A stretch of DNA of 64,000 nt from Marinobacter similis. Its GTDB lineage: Bacteria; Pseudomonadota; Gammaproteobacteria; Pseudomonadales; Oleiphilaceae. The position numbers and the translations under genes were made by a program. The stretch lies in contig NZ_CP007151.1 of assembly GCF_000830985.1 (NCBI RefSeq), positions 62,001-126,000 on the forward strand, given 5' to 3'. The notes beneath the pieces are model-generated. The model worked only from the letters and a program-made list of their open reading frames with translations. It did no database searches and was not told the origin of the DNA. This document shows, piece by piece, positions 1 to 6,491 of the stretch. How positions within the stretch are numbered: position 1 is the first letter of the stretch; each line of letters begins with the position of its first letter.

Positions 1-1598
1 AGCGCGGGCCAAATGCTCGGTGTCTTGCATTCGGGCCAGCGCTTCCTCCAGTTCACCCCGTACAAACAGGGCTTCGCCAATCACCGATGCGGCCGCAACC
101 CGGGATGTTGGAAGGAATCGCGCTTCCTGCTCAATCGCCTCCCGGGCCAGGATCAATGCCCGGTCGCCGTCACCATAGTTCATAGCGACCTGGGCGCGTA
201 TGGCGCTGAACTCACCGTGCACGGCTTTTTGTGTGTCCTCACTCATGGAGGCTTGCAGGCGATTTTCGGCCGCAGACAGCCAGTTCTCCACTTCATCAAA
301 CTTGTACTGACCCTGCGCGACCCAGGCGCGCAGCAGGGTCAGGGTCGGGTCTTGGGCAATCTGGTCCTGGGACAGGGCATCAAGACAGCGCTGCAGCAGG
401 ATGAACTGGCCCTCGGTGAAAAACTTGCGGCCGTGCAGGCTGAGCACGCGGTTAATGCGCTCGGGATCCTCTGCGGCTACTGCGTGCTTGGCAGCCTCTT
501 CAGCGTCGTCCAACTCCAGCCAGGCATCTGCGGCCCGCTGGTGCAGCTCGCGCTGGTTTTCCTGGGTGGTGCAGGTCAGCAAGTGACGCAGGTACACCGA
601 GAATAGCGGGTGGTAGCGGAACCAGAGTGCAGAGGGATCGACCGGCGCAATGAACAGACCCATGGACAGCAGGCTGCTGAGCAGCGACTGGCCATCGGTG
701 TCATCCATAACCCGCATCACCATGCCAGCGTTAAACCGGTCAAGGATGCTGGTCCGCAGAAGGAAGGTACGTTGCTGGTCGCTCAGATCCTGGCCGACGA
801 GTTCGTCGAAATAGTCGAAAACGTGCTGGTTGCCATATTCCAGTTGATCCACGAAGTCATTGAAATCCTGACTGGTGGGGGCAGTGGTCGCTAACAGCTG
901 CAGTGCTGAGATCCAGCTTCAACTCTCCGTACCGCGCGCTCGATGCTTTCGCGAGACAGTTCAAATGGAAGTCGATTTTCCAGGTATGCCTGTGCTTCGT
1001 CGGCACCGAAGGCCAAGTCCCGGCTGGTGATTTCGACGAGCAGTCCTTGCATCCGGAGCTGGGCCACGCCAATGGGCGGCAGGGTTCGGCTCACCAGAAC
1101 CAGGTGCAAGTTGGCTGGAAGATGCCGAAGCAGAAACCGGATGGCGTCGTGGATTTCCTGGTTGGTGATCAGGTGGTAGTCGTCCAGTACGACGAACAAC
1201 GGCTCATCCCCCGGAACCAACTCCGCCAGCACGCCGGTTACCAGCGCTTCGAGACTCTCGAAGCCAGTGTCCTTCAGGGTTTGGAGCGTATGCTGGCACC
1301 CGCCCTCGGTGGCCAGATTCAGGGCATTGGCGAGATAGCTGCCGAAACGGGTCGGATCGTTATCGCTGGCCTCAAGCCTGTACCAGGCGGACTTCAGCTC
1401 CAGAGCCTCAATTCGCTCGGCTACTGTTGTGGTCTTGCCATAACCAGCCGGTGCGTGCACCAGCAGCAATTTGACGGGCCCCAGCCCCTGCAGGAAATCG
1501 TTAAATGTTTCCCTTGGCAAAAGTGCGGTGGGTGCCTGTGGTGTCGCGTTTTTGGCCGCGATAAAGGTAGTCAGCCCCGGATTTAATATTGTTGTCAT
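1..1598 (-). CDS. MalT-like LuxR-family ATP-dependent transcriptional regulator (3' end outside window, one frameshift)
   Basis: Large STAND-type regulator of the MalT/LAL family. The N-terminus holds an NTPase domain with a Walker A motif (APAGYGKTT, about residue 50) and a Walker B-like stretch (FVVLDDYH). A helical region and TPR-like repeats follow as the gene runs off the left edge, so the expected C-terminal LuxR HTH is not visible. The frame breaks near 917, where one G is missing from a GG pair (coding strand GAAGGCTGG read as GAAGCTGG). Restoring it gives an open frame to position 1, at least 533 codons. It is divergent from the envelope operon beginning at 1845, which makes that operon its most likely target. 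This is an inference from position; the inducer is unknown. Confidence 0.8.
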
Positions 1599-1652
1599 CA
1601 GGATCTACATCTGGAAGTGGAAAACCCATCCGCGTTGATACCCGCTTTGGCG

Positions 1653-1664
1653 GTTGACGTCAAC
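1653..1664. promoter_or_regulatory. 12-bp perfect palindrome in the divergent intergenic region
   Basis: GTTGACGTCAAC is a perfect palindrome lying between the MalT-like regulator (start 1598) and the C39 peptidase operon (start 1845). Its position suits an operator controlling either gene. No known binding motif is assigned, and a 12-bp palindrome can occur by chance, so the call is tentative. Confidence 0.3.
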
Positions 1665-1844
1665 TTATGCCGCGGTCGCTAACCAAGCCTTGAACCAGTT
1701 CTCACAACCGATCCAGGGGGCGGCGCCTGCGGCTACAGATTTGAGGCACAGTTATCTTTCAGGGCGGAGGCTTTTCGGTATCTTACCGTAACAACGTGTA
1801 ACCCCCAATTATTATGGCCAATAAAAACAGGGACTTCGTCTGAC

Positions 1845-2645
1845 ATGCTGCTGGTGCTCGCCGGATCCATTCTTACATTCACCATGGTGCAGGAAGCCAC
1901 CGTGGTGGAGCCGTTTGAAAAGGGCAGCGTTGTCATCGAGCAGGACGTGGACTCGGGACCGGTGTTGTTGCGTTTCGATACCCGGGTAGAGCCATTGGTT
2001 GAGCAGAAGTACCGGAACATCGTTCGGCAGGCCTATGACTACAGCTGCGGCAGTGCCGCACTCACCACGGTGCTCAATTTCTACCTCGGGCGAAGCCTGT
2101 CAGAGCGACAGGTGATGGAGGGGCTGCTCCACTACGGAGAAAGCGAGCGCATTGTTGAGCGCCGTGCCTTTTCGATGCTGGATATGAAGCGCCTCGTTAC
2201 TGCGCTGGGCTATCCCTCCGGCGGATTTCGGGCATCGATCGACGACCTTAAGGATCTGGATCACCCCGCCATCGTTCCGATCAATCATGCCGGTTTCAAG
2301 CATTTCGTGGTGCTGCGAACCATCCGGGATGGCCGGGTGTACCTGGCCGATCCGTCGGTGGGCAACATCTCTTTTCTGCTGGCGGAGTTTGAGGACAAGT
2401 GGGACGACAACGTGCTGTTCATCGTCTTCCCGGGCAGTGACAAGCCACTGGATAACCTCGAACTGAAAGAGGAAGACCTGCGTTTCGTTGACGACCAGAC
2501 CATGACCATGCTGGCACTGGAACGAATTCCAGCATTCCACGAAGCAACCGAAAGACGAATCCAGAACTTGCTGGAACGCCAGAAAAACAATCCCGATGGC
2601 AGTGTCGAGAACACAAGAAAGCAGCTGCACTACCGTCGCAACTAA
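1845..2645 (+). CDS. C39-family cysteine peptidase, envelope-associated (FapD/FilB-like)
   Basis: A 266-residue peptidase C39 (papain-like) protein. The hydrophobic N-terminus (MLLVLAGSILTF) suggests a signal or anchor, although it lacks the usual positive residues. The catalytic Cys is in YDYSCGSAAL (about residue 68), the His in GFKHFVVLR and the Asp in YLADPSVG, all in family order. There is no ABC-transporter domain, so it is a stand-alone peptidase of the kind found in amyloid (FapD) and putative pilus (Fil) loci, not a bacteriocin exporter. The C-terminus is charged and helical. It is first of four co-directional genes ending with a MalM-like lipoprotein. The substrate is unknown and no double-glycine precursor was seen nearby. 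The start is uncertain because the ribosome binding site is weak. Confidence 0.78.
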   Translation: MLLVLAGSILTFTMVQEATVVEPFEKGSVVIEQDVDSGPVLLRFDTRVEPLVEQKYRNIVRQAYDYSCGSAALTTVLNFYLGRSLSERQVMEGLLHYGESERIVERRAFSMLDMKRLVTALGYPSGGFRASIDDLKDLDHPAIVPINHAGFKHFVVLRTIRDGRVYLADPSVGNISFLLAEFEDKWDDNVLFIVFPGSDKPLDNLELKEEDLRFVDDQTMTMLALERIPAFHEATERRIQNLLERQKNNPDGSVENTRKQLHYRRN

Positions 2646-2698
2646 TTTCCGGGTTCATTCCCGGGCCAGGAAACTAAAAATAAAATAAGGGAGTCAGG

Positions 2699-3709
2699 AT
2701 GAATCGTTGGTTTGTGCGAGGCGTTATCCTTGTTTCCACGGCAGGACTGCTTCCGGGCATGGCCCTGGCGCAGGAAGGAAATGTGGACCAGGCGCGGGAA
2801 GCCCTGGCCAAGCAGGAGGGCGATGAGGATTCATCCCGCCAGTTGGAGGAGGTTTTCCAGGCTGCCGAGAAGAATTACTCGCTGCAGAAGAAGGGGACTC
2901 ACTCCCTGACATACTCTTTTGATTACTCCTATACCGCTGATCAGCGTATTGATCTGAGCATTTCGGACAACTCGGTGGAGAATCTCGATGTGGTTCCCTC
3001 GGCCACTCACAACTTCACCAATGCCTTTTCCTACGACTACGGTCTTCTGGACAACCTGACCGTTGGTACCCGTGTCCCTTTGGTGGTGAAATACGACTCC
3101 CAGGATGAGCTCACCGTGTACGACTTCGGTGATATCTCCTTTACCGGGCGCTGGCAGCCGTTTGCCTATGTGCCGGGCAAAATGTCCACCACGCTGTTCA
3201 GCACCTTCACTTCGAAGACCGGCGTAAGCCCTTATGAAATTGATATCAAGGAGCAGTTGTCCACCGGTAGTGGTTATTACTCCCTGTCTGGTGGCCTGAG
3301 TCTCTCCAAAGTGCTGGATCCGGTAGTGGTGTTCGGTTCTACAAGCCTGACCTACAACTTTGAAGTTGACGGTTTGGACCAGGTTCGTGGCGCCCGGCGG
3401 CTGGTCAAGGTGGATCCCGGTTTTGGCCTGTCGGGTTCGGCTGGTTTTGCCTACTCCCTGTCTTACGACATTTCCCTCAGCATCTCGGCACAGCTCAGCT
3501 ACAACGATGAAACAATACTGACCTTCAGCAACGGTGACGAGGCGGTGGCCCAGGACCAGATGACCGGCTTCCTGAGTATGTCGCTGGGCACACGGGTCAG
3601 TGACACCACCATTGTGAATACCAGCCTTGGTATCGGTTTGACCGAGGATGCCCCGGACTTCTCCCTGGGTGTATCCCTGCCCATTAATTTCTCCGGCCTC
3701 AAAGAGTGA
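2699..3709 (+). CDS. FapF-like outer-membrane beta-barrel channel with N-terminal coiled coil
   Basis: 336 residues with a clear signal peptide (cleavage near ALAQEG). A charged helical segment follows at about residues 28-60 (QAREALAKQEG, then QLEEVFQAAEKNY), and then alternating beta-strands to the C-terminus. This layout resembles FapF, the Pseudomonas outer-membrane channel that exports functional amyloid and carries an N-terminal coiled-coil plug. A good ribosome binding site (AAGGGAG) precedes the ATG. The gene lies 53 bp after the C39 peptidase, just as FapF works with the C39 peptidase FapD. No FapB/FapC-type amyloid subunit is visible in the window, so the cargo is unknown. The similarity to FapF is judged by eye. 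Confidence 0.68.
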   Translation: MNRWFVRGVILVSTAGLLPGMALAQEGNVDQAREALAKQEGDEDSSRQLEEVFQAAEKNYSLQKKGTHSLTYSFDYSYTADQRIDLSISDNSVENLDVVPSATHNFTNAFSYDYGLLDNLTVGTRVPLVVKYDSQDELTVYDFGDISFTGRWQPFAYVPGKMSTTLFSTFTSKTGVSPYEIDIKEQLSTGSGYYSLSGGLSLSKVLDPVVVFGSTSLTYNFEVDGLDQVRGARRLVKVDPGFGLSGSAGFAYSLSYDISLSISAQLSYNDETILTFSNGDEAVAQDQMTGFLSMSLGTRVSDTTIVNTSLGIGLTEDAPDFSLGVSLPINFSGLKE

Positions 3710-3747
3710 TTGGTGCCGTCGACGTTTTACGGGAAGGGAAGGACTTC

Positions 3748-5371
3748 ATGGGACACAACAGCCACAAAAGGCAGATTCTCGCGGCCCTGATTGCTTCGAC
3801 CATCGCGTGTGGTGCCGAGGCCCAGCTCGCACAGAACCTCACCATCCACCCAAAAGCATTGGCGTTGGGTAACGCGGTGACGGCGGATCCGCCAGGCATC
3901 ATGGCGATTCATTACAACCCGGCGGGACTGACCAAGCTGGACGGTCGTCAGCTGGAAGTCACCCTAATGAACGTGTATCTGGATATTGATGCCGATTTCC
4001 ACGCGCCGGATGGCTATGAAATTTTTGGTATTGATGGTCTGGAAACGGATCCGCTGACGGGCAGACAGAGAGATCCGGTCGCCAACACCCACAGTCACAC
4101 CAATAACGTTGCCCTGTATGTGCCCGGCTACGGCATTCTGCGGGCACCACCCGGGCCTGCGGTTGCGCCGTCGGCCGGTATCAGTATCAACCCGCCCGGC
4201 TCCAAGCTGACCTTTGGTAATGCCTTCTATCTGCCCCTGGCGGCCGGCTTTTACCGCGACAAGGACGATCCGGGCCGATACCAGCCGCAGGCGACTGCGC
4301 TGCAGCGGACTACCTACCTTTCGCCCACAGTTGGCTATGAAATCAACGAACACTGGTCCGTGGGAGCGGGTATCCACCTGTCCCACATGGGCATTGCCGC
4401 CGACCAGTACATGCGGGCACCCAACATGTTGCTGGGGGTGGCCGAGATACTGCAGGACGCCTTCAACTGCGAAAGCGGCGATGAGCCACTGCAGCCGTGG
4501 CTGGCCCTGTGTGGCGGTAACATCGGTCCCTGGGATGACATCGGTGCCCTGAGTATCAATGTCCAGGAAACCCTGTCGCCTACCTATGCCCTCGGCGTGA
4601 TGTGGGAGCCACGGACTGGTTCAGCTGGGGCGCCAGTTACACCTCCGAAGCCGCTATGAACCTCAAGGGCTCGTTTGAAATCGAGTACACCGACGACTGG
4701 TCGGGTTTCTGGCAAGGACTCAATGGCTCAGTGCTGGGTGCCATCACTTCGGCCATTCTCAGCTTGCCATCCGGTGCTCCCCGGGAAGCCGGTAATGTCA
4801 GCATGGACCTGGTGTACCCCCAGCATTTCCAGACCGGCATCAGTGTGGATGTACATCCGAAACTGACACTCAATGCGGACATTGGCTGGACCGACTACGC
4901 TCAGTGGGATGCGTTTGTGTTCCGCTTCGACCGCAATCTGGAATTCCTGAACGCCGCCAAGATTCTCTCTCCGGATAACGCCACATCAAACACCCTGCGC
5001 TTGCCCCTGGGCTTCAAAAGCCAGTGGAACTGGGCCTTTGGTGCCGAGTTTCATGCGTCTTCGCGGCTGGACCTGAGGGCAGGGGTGGAAATACGTGACT
5101 CGGTTATCCCTGACGATCAGCGCTCTATCATGGCTCCGTTTGGTGGTGCCAACCTCTACAGCATCGGGATGGGGTATCGCTGGGACAAAGACACCGAGAT
5201 CGACTTGAACCTGAGCTATCTCCACTCGATTGAAACCATCCCGGCTGACACCAGTTGTAACGTAAACTGTGACAACATCACCAACATCATCTACAACCCC
5301 TATGCCGGGCTCGACGTGAAGACTCGCTTCGGGTGGTCATGGCCGGCCTGAGTTTTCGCACCAAATTCTGA
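3748..5371 (+). CDS. FadL/OmpP1-like outer-membrane protein (two frameshifts)
   Basis: Restored product about 541 residues. The N-terminus is a signal peptide (MGHNSHKRQILAALIASTIA, cleaved near AEA). The segment PPGIMAIHYNPAGLTKLDG is typical of FadL/OmpP1 proteins, whose N-terminal hatch contains NPA. The frame breaks near 4609 (CCC read as CC) and near 5332 (GGGG read as GGG). Restoring both gives a protein ending in ...LSFRTKF, a C-terminal Phe as expected for Bam-inserted barrels. FadL-family barrels take up hydrophobic compounds; here the protein sits in an operon with a peptidase and a FapF-like channel, so its role may differ. The start is chosen for the signal peptide and the purine-rich GGGAAGGGAAGGA upstream. 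Confidence 0.72.
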
Positions 5372-5407
5372 TAGGCTGACAAGTAACATCGGGGTATCCC
5401 ATTCATA

Positions 5408-6491
5408 ATGAGCAGACCCAAACTGGCAACGAACATAATGATTTGGGGCTTGGCGACCGTGCTTGGCGGTTGCCAGTTGGGTGGGTCCACCGTGTCCGAA
5501 CGTGAGGGCTATTACACCTGGGTGGACGAGCAGGGGCGGGTGCGCTATTCGCCGATTGTTGCCACCTCCGACCAAACACCGGCCAAGGAATCAGCATCGG
5601 AAACCGCTGGCGCTGGCCAGCAAAAAATGCCTGAATCCAATGCCGCCGCGGCGCCCGCTGAAGAAGCCGGAGGCGCTGTCTCGTCAGAGGGCGAGGAAAC
5701 CGAGTTCACCCTGGAGAATTATCCAGACGCCAACGAACTGGCAAAAGACGGCTATGTCCGCCCGGGCGAACGCCAACCTTATTTCACTTGGCGGGATGCC
5801 AGGGCAATGTCCGGGTGAGTTACTTTAAACCGGATACCCGAAGTGATGTCGAAAAGGGCGTCGTTGCTCCGCCCATTGAACTCACTCCGGCCAGCGTGTA
5901 CCACAGCGCGCCCGATCTTGAACCAGTCAAGACGGAAAATCAGGGGGGGCTCGACGCCTACGCTGTCCTGGGTATTGAGGGCGGTGGTGATTATTTTGAA
6001 CGATTCCGCGAGTTCTGCTGTCTTGGCCTGGACACCCAAGACGCGATGGAATGGCAGCAGGGCCGAGAGTTCGGGGTTAACGTTACCGAACTGTCGCCAA
6101 CCCATAATTTTCTGACCGGAAGCAGCCCCTATCAGATGATTGACCTAGCCACTGTGCTCGGGGGCCGGATTTCATCATGCGAATCCGGTCTTACGCCCAG
6201 AACGGCGTCTTCGTACCTTCGTTGGCGTTTCTGGACCGGAATTTTGAACCCGTGCGGCTGGTTACCGATCTCGTTACCCCCTATGAGCCAGAAACCTGGA
6301 GTCGGCGGGGTTTTCTGGAAGCCTGGGTGCCGGTCTTTCCCGGCCAGGGCGAGCGTTGGGTAGTGCTTTACACCCGCAGCTCAGACCTTGCCGGCCAAAC
6401 CGTGATTGAGGCCGGCGCTGGCAAAAAGCCGAAGGTCATTCCCCACGTCACCAAAGGTGAGGTGGGGTTGAAGATGGTGGAGCAGGACTGA
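5408..6491 (+). CDS. MalM-like lipoprotein with DUF4124-like N-terminus (two frameshifts; FilE-like)
   Basis: Restored product about 361 residues. The N-terminus carries a lipoprotein signal ending in LGGC (Cys about residue 22), then a GYYTWVDEQGRVRYSPI stretch like DUF4124, and an Ala/Glu-rich linker. The C-terminal 200 residues resemble MalM of the maltose operon: FGVNVTELSPTHNF, then VFVPSLAFLDRNFEPVR, then VVLYTRSSDL. Two CCC runs are read as CC, near 5799 and 6165; adding one C at each joins three open frames into one protein. It is last in the C39/FapF-like/FadL-like operon. A MalT-like regulator at the other end of the locus gives a second echo of maltose genes, but no maltose transporter is present. 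Confidence 0.66.

Follow-up and report, generated by a model that had tools for sequence, protein, structure and literature searches.

The first 6,491 nucleotides of a 64,000-nucleotide window of the Marinobacter similis chromosome (contig NZ_CP007151.1, positions 62,001 to 126,000; G000:C1 in the locations below) contain four co-directional genes, filB, filC, filD and filE, which face a gene for a MalT-like regulator, as the preliminary description of this DNA had it (Table 1). We find it quite probable that the products of filBCDE process and export the subunits of a Fil-type surface fibre, the substrates being proteins of the DUF6160 family encoded elsewhere in the genome. The names MalM and MalT, as used here, stem from domain models; a maltose operon was set aside as a reading, and the neighbours of the regulator gene are fil genes.

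Table 1. Genes at positions 1 to 6,491 of the window.
Feature	Position	Strand	Basis
MalT-like STAND/LAL transcriptional regulator	1..1598, on past the window to G000:C1:60847	-	NF003420 MalT
filB, C39 cysteine peptidase, no ABC-transporter domain	1845..2645	+	Peptidase_C39 and FilB models
filC, FapF-like beta-barrel of the outer membrane, helical stretch at the N-terminus	2699..3709	+	FilC and FapF models, AlphaFold2
filD, FadL/TodX-type outer-membrane barrel	3706..5371 (end approximate)	+	Toluene_X, FilD
filE, predicted lipoprotein with DUF4124 and MalM domains	5408..6491	+	DUF4124, MalM

The four genes travel together. A scan of genome contigs with a FilC alignment returned 418 relatives among 464 matching stretches, and synteny was counted by tblastn in the best 80, whose hosts include Marinobacter, Thalassolituus, Oleispira, Bacterioplanes, Bermanella, Hahella, Halospina, Oleiphilus, Pseudomonas and Atopomonas, among others. 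The order filB-filC-filD is kept in 79 of the 80 loci, the exception being cut by a contig end, and filE is also present in 74; the six loci short of the full set comprise two without filE at a contig edge, three in which tblastn finds no filE, and one without filB at an edge. The filBCDE arrangement is not due to chance. The preliminary description had allowed that the genes might not be conserved together in relatives, or might each belong to an unrelated known pathway; we find instead that they keep company and behave as one system. Apart from this synteny count, genes in the loci were called with a simple open reading frame (ORF) picker, which overlooks some genes and places the start of others wrongly (filB in loci L232 and L241 is a case in point); the counts of MalT-like and cargo genes near fil, given below, come from it. 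FilB and FilC appear to form the core of the system, since no homologue of filD or filE is found beside filBC in genomes G556, G052 and G093 (blastp, E<1e-5). The contig of another genome, G428, stops just past filC.

The protein encoded by filB scores 66.4 bits with Peptidase_C39, 269.6 bits with the FilB hidden Markov model (HMM) and 122.1 bits with that of FapD. Its N-terminus has a hydrophobic stretch, judged by eye, and Q62, C68, H153 and D169, which we take to be the C39 catalytic residues, are invariant among the rows scored (94-95 of the 95 FilB rows). FilC scores 338.6 bits with the FilC model and 73.5 bits with that of FapF. Its AlphaFold2 model (predicted local distance difference test, pLDDT, 75.3; 32 sequences) is nearest to FapF (Foldseek E 3.5e-17; Z 23.1, root-mean-square deviation 3.2 over 261-265 residues, 24% identity), with the COG4313 channel 4rl8 behind it (Z 19.6, 13% identity). 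The channel beside the stand-alone C39 peptidase, which the preliminary description had called FapF-like, is so in both sequence and predicted fold; the two proteins are related to their Fap counterparts at scores below the curated Fap cut-offs (122.1 versus 330 for FapD, 73.5 versus 700 for FapF). The two pieces of filD in the window score 79.6 and 127.1 bits with Toluene_X, and the intact copy in the relative G028 scores 551.6 bits with FilD. FilE carries a lipobox, LGGC (by eye), and matches DUF4124 and MalM at 23.4 and 46.8 bits in the window and at 32.9 and 41.9 bits in G028.

The preliminary description had compared the locus with the Fil system of Acinetobacter. The comparison stands as homology by HMMs (269.6 and 338.6 bits in the window, 551.6 bits for FilD of G028) and falls short as membership: none of the three proteins reaches the cut-off curated by NCBI (FilB 475, FilC 630, FilD 970), and the FilC cut-off is passed by G359 only among 390 genomes at the level of the order. 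By sequence, the machinery proteins are best described as relatives of Acinetobacter Fil, not as named members by the NCBI standard. With the Acinetobacter system (FilA-FilF) the M. similis locus shares FilB, FilC and FilD in the same order, a fourth gene at the position of FilE, and FilA-like DUF6160 substrates; it differs in its scores, in having its cargo outside the operon, in the gene past filE, which lies on the opposite strand, and in the MalT-like regulator that faces the operon. For Acinetobacter the available text of two papers names the fibre and FilA and gives no processing step (PMC3498257, PMC11784438); the FilA band of Acinetobacter sp. Tol 5 is reported to have been identified in earlier work by Edman degradation (PMC3498257).

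The window opens inside the malT-like gene, so that the C-terminal part of the regulator lies beyond its edge, and in this assembly the reading frame is broken in malT between 852 and 918, in filD near 4611 and 5327, and in filE near 5800 and 6160. These frameshifts could mean that fil is a decaying pseudogene cluster in M. similis. In the near-identical relative G028, whose FilB and FilC are 99% identical, all five genes are intact (malT 918, filB 266, filC 336, filD 555 and filE 361 amino acids), and changes of frame relative to G028 are found 5 times in the locus (2422 amino acids, five genes) and 23 times in the remaining window (17668 amino acids; 18 of 55 genes split). Because the indels are spread window-wide and the genes are intact in G028, the frame changes look like a property of the assembly, namely sequencing errors, not decay of the locus; we rejected the pseudogene reading on this window-wide control and regard it as very improbable. 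Across the whole window (1-64000), 21 of the 60 genes compared with G028 are frame-changed, and single-gene calls within it need checking against the relative.

The preliminary description had also remarked that amyloid subunits are absent and that the cargo might be encoded elsewhere. The absence holds for positions 1-6491, where the Fap subunit models (FapB/FapC) find no match in the five genes that fill them, and does not extend to the genome, since cargo genes sit elsewhere on the chromosome. The suggestion of a distant cargo proved sound: DUF6160 genes occur in the same genome, and a relative of their products is a solved filament. The cargo family is Pfam DUF6160, with three genes in M. 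similis, at 279225, 280294 and 2674284, the two tandem members scoring 114.8 and 70.5 bits. A profile of signal and leader spanning 46 positions matches M. similis at G000:C1:279225, 280279 and 2674248; within Marinobacter, its match count is 3, 3, 9 and 7 for four genomes with fil and 0 for five without. The NCBIfam FilA model, tried as a cargo finder, was dropped in favour of Pfam DUF6160 for its weak scores: its matches in the filB-bearing genomes of the genus are weak and dispersed (best 50.1 bits versus a cut-off of 220), and it reaches one of the two M. similis cargo proteins scanned, at 33.2 bits.

Cargo and machinery co-occur at three taxonomic levels. Among the 390 order-level genomes, with a strong FilC match defined as E<1e-40, DUF6160 and FilC occur together in 51, DUF6160 alone in one (a weak match), FilC alone in two, and neither in 336. 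Of the FilC-only pair, G178 is a 65% complete genome, and in G093 our own cargo profile scores a protein close to filB that carries a leader (E 2.6e-4). DUF6160 is absent from the 18 order-level genomes that have only a weaker, FapF-level FilC match. At the level of the class (274 genomes), DUF6160 and FilC fall in the same six genomes, at least two of which (G000 and G070) are also counted in the order set; DUF6160 exceeds the Pfam cut-off in five of the six and is absent from the 23 genomes with weaker FilC matches. Within the genus, filB is present in 31 of 37 genomes, and DUF6160 in 30 of these 31 and in none of the six without filB; the filB genome lacking DUF6160, G027, has a broken filB.

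By the ORF picker, a cargo gene lies upstream of filB/filC in 19 of the best 80 loci, and in several further families. In Marinobacter the cargo sits in a block with a LysR regulator and a PAPS reductase, presumably cysB and cysH, a HAD hydrolase and a chorismate-binding enzyme (Pfam assignments). Homologues of this block flank the fil operon in other families, mostly together with cargo: in the 23 other-family loci compared the chorismate-binding enzyme is found in 19, the HAD hydrolase in 11, the PAPS reductase in 11 and the LysR regulator in 8. The simplest reading is a single operon of machinery and cargo in the past, which would have been split in the Marinobacter line.

Several further features of the cargo genes were seen. 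In L141:5759-11608 (G389) five DUF6160 paralogues stand in tandem. A second row of leader-bearing proteins, of about 290-400, 340-400, 180-220 and 800 amino acids, is present in L154, L155, L156, L157 and L159, from Marinobacter and one other family, and lies near contig ends in many drafts; its 800-residue member is absent among the three DUF6160 matches of M. similis. A gene for a TgpA-type transglutaminase (L152:12081-14156; G000:C1 near 283 kb) lies two same-strand genes downstream of the M. similis cargo pair.

Behind their Sec signal peptide the cargo proteins carry a second leader of about 16 residues, which has double-glycine C39 spacing and mostly ends in Gly-Gln (GQ). In C39 recognition hydrophobic residues at -15, -12, -7 and -4 matter, and leaders ending in GS also occur. 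Cargo N-terminal profile matches (E<0.01) number 115 among 2278 distinct proteins called in the loci; the 115 all differ in sequence, but they include orthologues that are nearly identical and, for one gene (L059/L075), a few incomplete copies. In 108 of the 115 proteins there is a site with hydrophobic residues at -15, -12, -7 and -4 and Gln at -1, with Gly (92%) or Ala (8%) at -2, a table of positions that is partly circular because the sites were chosen by score using the same features. The GQ site lies 16 residues past an AxA-like site in 88 of the 108, and the sequence that follows mostly starts [A/D/S]G[V/I][T/S]I. A strict leader pattern, applied blind, picks out 100 of the 115. It also matches 15 of the 2163 remaining proteins, two of which are further cargo from the same clusters, and 40 of 2300 N-termini that had been shuffled. 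Of the seven cargo proteins without a Gln site, five have leaders ending in GG (two entries of one gene), GA (two) or GS (one), one has the signal directly before the post-GQ type of sequence, and one is leaderless.

The published consensus for double-glycine leaders is LSX2ELX2IXGG, cleaved past the dipeptide (PMC3897388), and GA is reported as an alternative ending (PMC5557850). Of the features of such leaders, the hydrophobic -12, -7 and -4 and the Gly at -2 are present in the cargo, and Gly, Ala or Ser at -1 is confined to five of the 115 proteins. The bacteriocin leader model TIGR01847 scores the GG variant at 13.9 bits, below its cut-off of 15.7, and scans of isolated leaders against Pfam and NCBIfam return mainly DUF6160 and FilA. 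The system thus resembles C39 ABC transporters and their double-glycine leaders in its catalytic domain, in the shape of the leader and in the predicted cut after a dipeptide; it differs in that FilB has no ABC domain, that the Fil leader stands behind a Sec signal, so that cutting would be periplasmic, and that P1 is mostly Gln. A natural pair of GG and GQ substrates is found in G001, where a cargo paralogue with a true GG leader (L059:496-1404) lies downstream of a GQ cargo gene. Our literature search returned no account of a C39 leader placed behind a Sec signal, and DUF6160 appeared only as a name in a list, in one paper.

Two other sets of proteins bear on the leader. Long proteins encoded within the operon at L027:1165-5781 and L143:4523-7384 have a signal peptide, by eye, and then directly AGISIDL or AGVIMEL, which is of the post-GQ type, an observation that points to a cut after GQ. 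Outside the order, in G556, G668 and G428, 17 small proteins from among the DUF6160 matches share a leader of the general form ELxPMxDxELxxVxGQ. The leaders average 0.46 in pairwise identity, and relatedness of the mature parts is seen in 6 of the 136 pairs. Because the proteins were found via the DUF6160 profile, the common leader is partly a matter of selection, but the lack of relation between the bodies is not. A conserved front on unrelated bodies is how a processing signal should look.

The cargo family has a relative of known structure. PDB entry 9xfv ('Pilus-like-alpha', 'bacteria pilus (like)') is a filament from a karst cave with 25 chains of 173 residues, which the cargo profile matches at both ends (E 4.1e-10); single-sequence matches come from FilA of Pseudomonas flexibilis (E 6.2e-9) and P. 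resinovorans (E 1.9e-7). In each alignment residue 1 of the 9xfv chain aligns with the residue following GQ, and the aligned range, 38..210 in the numbering of the entry, covers all 173 residues; number 38 is likewise the position that follows GQ in FilA of P. flexibilis. This chain start is strong but not final support for a cut after GQ. The link to 9xfv comes from sequence searches, and VIA matches under Z 8 are not fold evidence. An AlphaFold2 model of a Thalassolituus-type FilA (pLDDT 80.5) is of low confidence to about residue 40 and has ordered strands from 41, with GQ at 37-38; because order begins just beyond GQ, the model too points to a cut there. The filament and the Fil cargo are thus alike in sequence at both ends, with a chain that starts at the predicted cut, and differ in that 9xfv is an environmental filament. 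The karst-cave filament itself is described in no paper returned by our literature search.

We propose the following sequence of events. The cargo would first be exported by Sec and trimmed by signal peptidase I, as established for signal peptides in general. FilB, on the periplasmic side, would then recognise a leader of the double-glycine type in the roughly 16 residues that follow and cut after Gly-Gln. By analogy with FapF, the mature protein may cross the outer membrane via FilC, with FilD and the lipoprotein FilE perhaps assisting export in accessory roles, and it would finally polymerise into a filament, a step that 9xfv demonstrates for a relative. Alternatively, the GQ segment might stay uncut and act as a signal for docking at FilC or FilB or for a chaperone function of theirs; the C39 protein would then be a tether without catalytic activity, as is the case in some type I systems. 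Gln is an unusual P1 residue for C39, and C39-like domains that do not cleave exist (PMC5557850); set against this are the invariant Q, C, H and D of the FilB rows scored, the solved 9xfv chain that starts directly past GQ, the two proteins whose post-GQ start follows straight on the signal peptide, and the predicted cargo fold, which is ordered only beyond the GQ. We consider docking without cleavage unlikely.

The barrels raise another possibility, that the operon serves mainly in the uptake of hydrophobic compounds and that DUF6160 proteins bind lipids or alkanes at the surface without forming a fibre. FilD is FadL-like (Toluene_X), FilC resembles the COG4313 channel 4rl8 (Z 19.6), the regulator is of MalT/AlkS type, and the hosts include Thalassolituus, Oleispira and Marinobacter, which are known hydrocarbon degraders. 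The Fil fimbriae of Acinetobacter Tol 5 have been assigned to triacylglycerol-grown cells (PMC3498257), and a Thalassolituus FadL homologue, TOL_1625, rises ninefold on n-C28 in proteomic work whose available text names no Fil protein (PMC6304351). Marinobacter also has an alkane-uptake system, AupA/AupB, to which filD might conceivably be related. FilC is nevertheless nearer to FapF (Z 23.1, 24% identity) than to COG4313 (19.6, 13%), filBC stands without a filD or filE homologue beside it in G556, G052 and G093, a DUF6160 relative is a solved filament, and C39 peptidases go unreported in operons with COG4313-like pores in the available text of PMC6173800. Uptake as the main role is, in our judgment, quite unlikely. 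A filB transposon mutant of A. baumannii AB5075 is reported as wild-type in polymyxin killing, which has no bearing on fibres (PMC8887720).

To the curated Fil cut-offs that the machinery fails to reach are added other points that weigh against a fibre whose subunits are cut by FilB after GQ. The cut is a prediction from sequence. Gln at -1, present in 108 of the 115 cargo proteins, is not the canonical C39 P1 residue (Gly/Ala/Ser); about 8% of the 108 leaders have Ala at -2, one leader ends in GE, 15 of the 115 proteins fail the strict pattern, and the cargo at L147:6408-6941 is leaderless. The same chain start in 9xfv may arise if the leader is present but disordered in the filament. Phmmer searches of the PDB with the Marinobacter cargo of L032 and L038 did not find 9xfv, and the cargo model, built from 18 sequences, finds nothing in Foldseek at E<=0.001 and meets 9xfv by VIA only at rank 19, with Z 4.6. 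The P value for co-occurrence, 2e-60, overstates the independence of genomes that are related and has no exact meaning. Finally, the ORF picker finds a MalT-like gene within the fetched stretch in 13 of 41 Marinobacter loci, in three of them about 8 kb from filB.

Leaders of the same shape are found in the Fap branch. Each of seven FapF-type loci, identified by weaker FilC matches, encodes one protein with a signal-like segment and a leader ending in Gly-Arg (GR), as found by six-frame reading. The loci come from six of the 18 order-level genomes with weaker FilC matches and from M. similis. Of six GR proteins scanned, three match FapE above its cut-off, one below it and two not at all; the seventh GR protein lies in L291. 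The GR pattern has seven matches in the seven loci and none in 2.21 Mb of sequence from 118 others, of which many are near-duplicates; this control is post hoc because the pattern was written after viewing examples. FapD is reported to work in the periplasm, and its active-site Cys to be required for secretion of FapC; FapE is reported as the only Fap protein with complete N-terminal processing (PMC5557850). The available text of three sources treats periplasmic C39 peptidases as uncharacterised and the target of FapD as unclear or thought to include FapE (PMC5557850, PMC6173800, PMC12822426). We put forward FapE as a candidate substrate of FapD, predicted to be cut after GR. Fil shares with the Fap system of Pseudomonas a C39 peptidase (122.1 bits to FapD), a barrel whose fold is nearest FapF, and a leader of the shape seen in FapE, which has a GR ending; it differs in that no subunit of the FapB/FapC type is encoded at the locus and in its DUF6160 substrates, absent where the FilC match is only FapF-level. 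The M. similis genome has a second pair of this kind, a FapD-like C39 gene and a FapF-like gene (L160:6147-9783; G000:C1 near 3.875 Mb), beside which a 116-residue protein with a GR leader is encoded (L160:7113-7463).

Taken together, Fil and Fap may be branches of a general two-signal pathway in Gammaproteobacteria, a view that we favour somewhat over its negation. In such a pathway a C39-type leader would stand immediately behind a Sec signal and be removed in the periplasm by a stand-alone C39 peptidase (FilB after GQ, FapD after GR on FapE), and a FapF-type barrel would export the product; DUF6160 proteins would be a major class of substrate, at least one lineage would have many unrelated small ones, and, Fap aside, 9xfv would be the first fibre of the pathway with a solved structure. 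The leader rule predicts an exact cut site in both systems, and offers a testable proposal for the substrates that C39 peptidases of the stand-alone FilB kind cut. DUF6160, a family of unknown function, gains a proposed role, and an orphan filament structure is tied to a probable export machine.

The MalT-like regulator that faces the operon probably sets fil expression, and this is the weakest link of the scheme. Its two pieces in the window score 229.5 and 307.7 bits with NF003420 MalT, and the intact copy in G028 (918 amino acids) scores 1088.2 bits, above the curated cut-off of 537. A lipid cue is a reasonable guess, by analogy with the Fil fimbriae assigned to Tol 5 cells grown on triacylglycerol. 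In each of six Marinobacter genomes with fil that were tested, a second MalT-like gene lies about 5 kb from a cargo gene; it is 27-30% identical to the first in five of them and 25% in G036. It is not fil-specific, since G030, which lacks fil, carries a similar MalT-like gene too (E 1.1e-53). By the ORF picker, the fil genes are preceded by a tandem pair of MalT-like genes in six of six Pseudomonas and Atopomonas loci.

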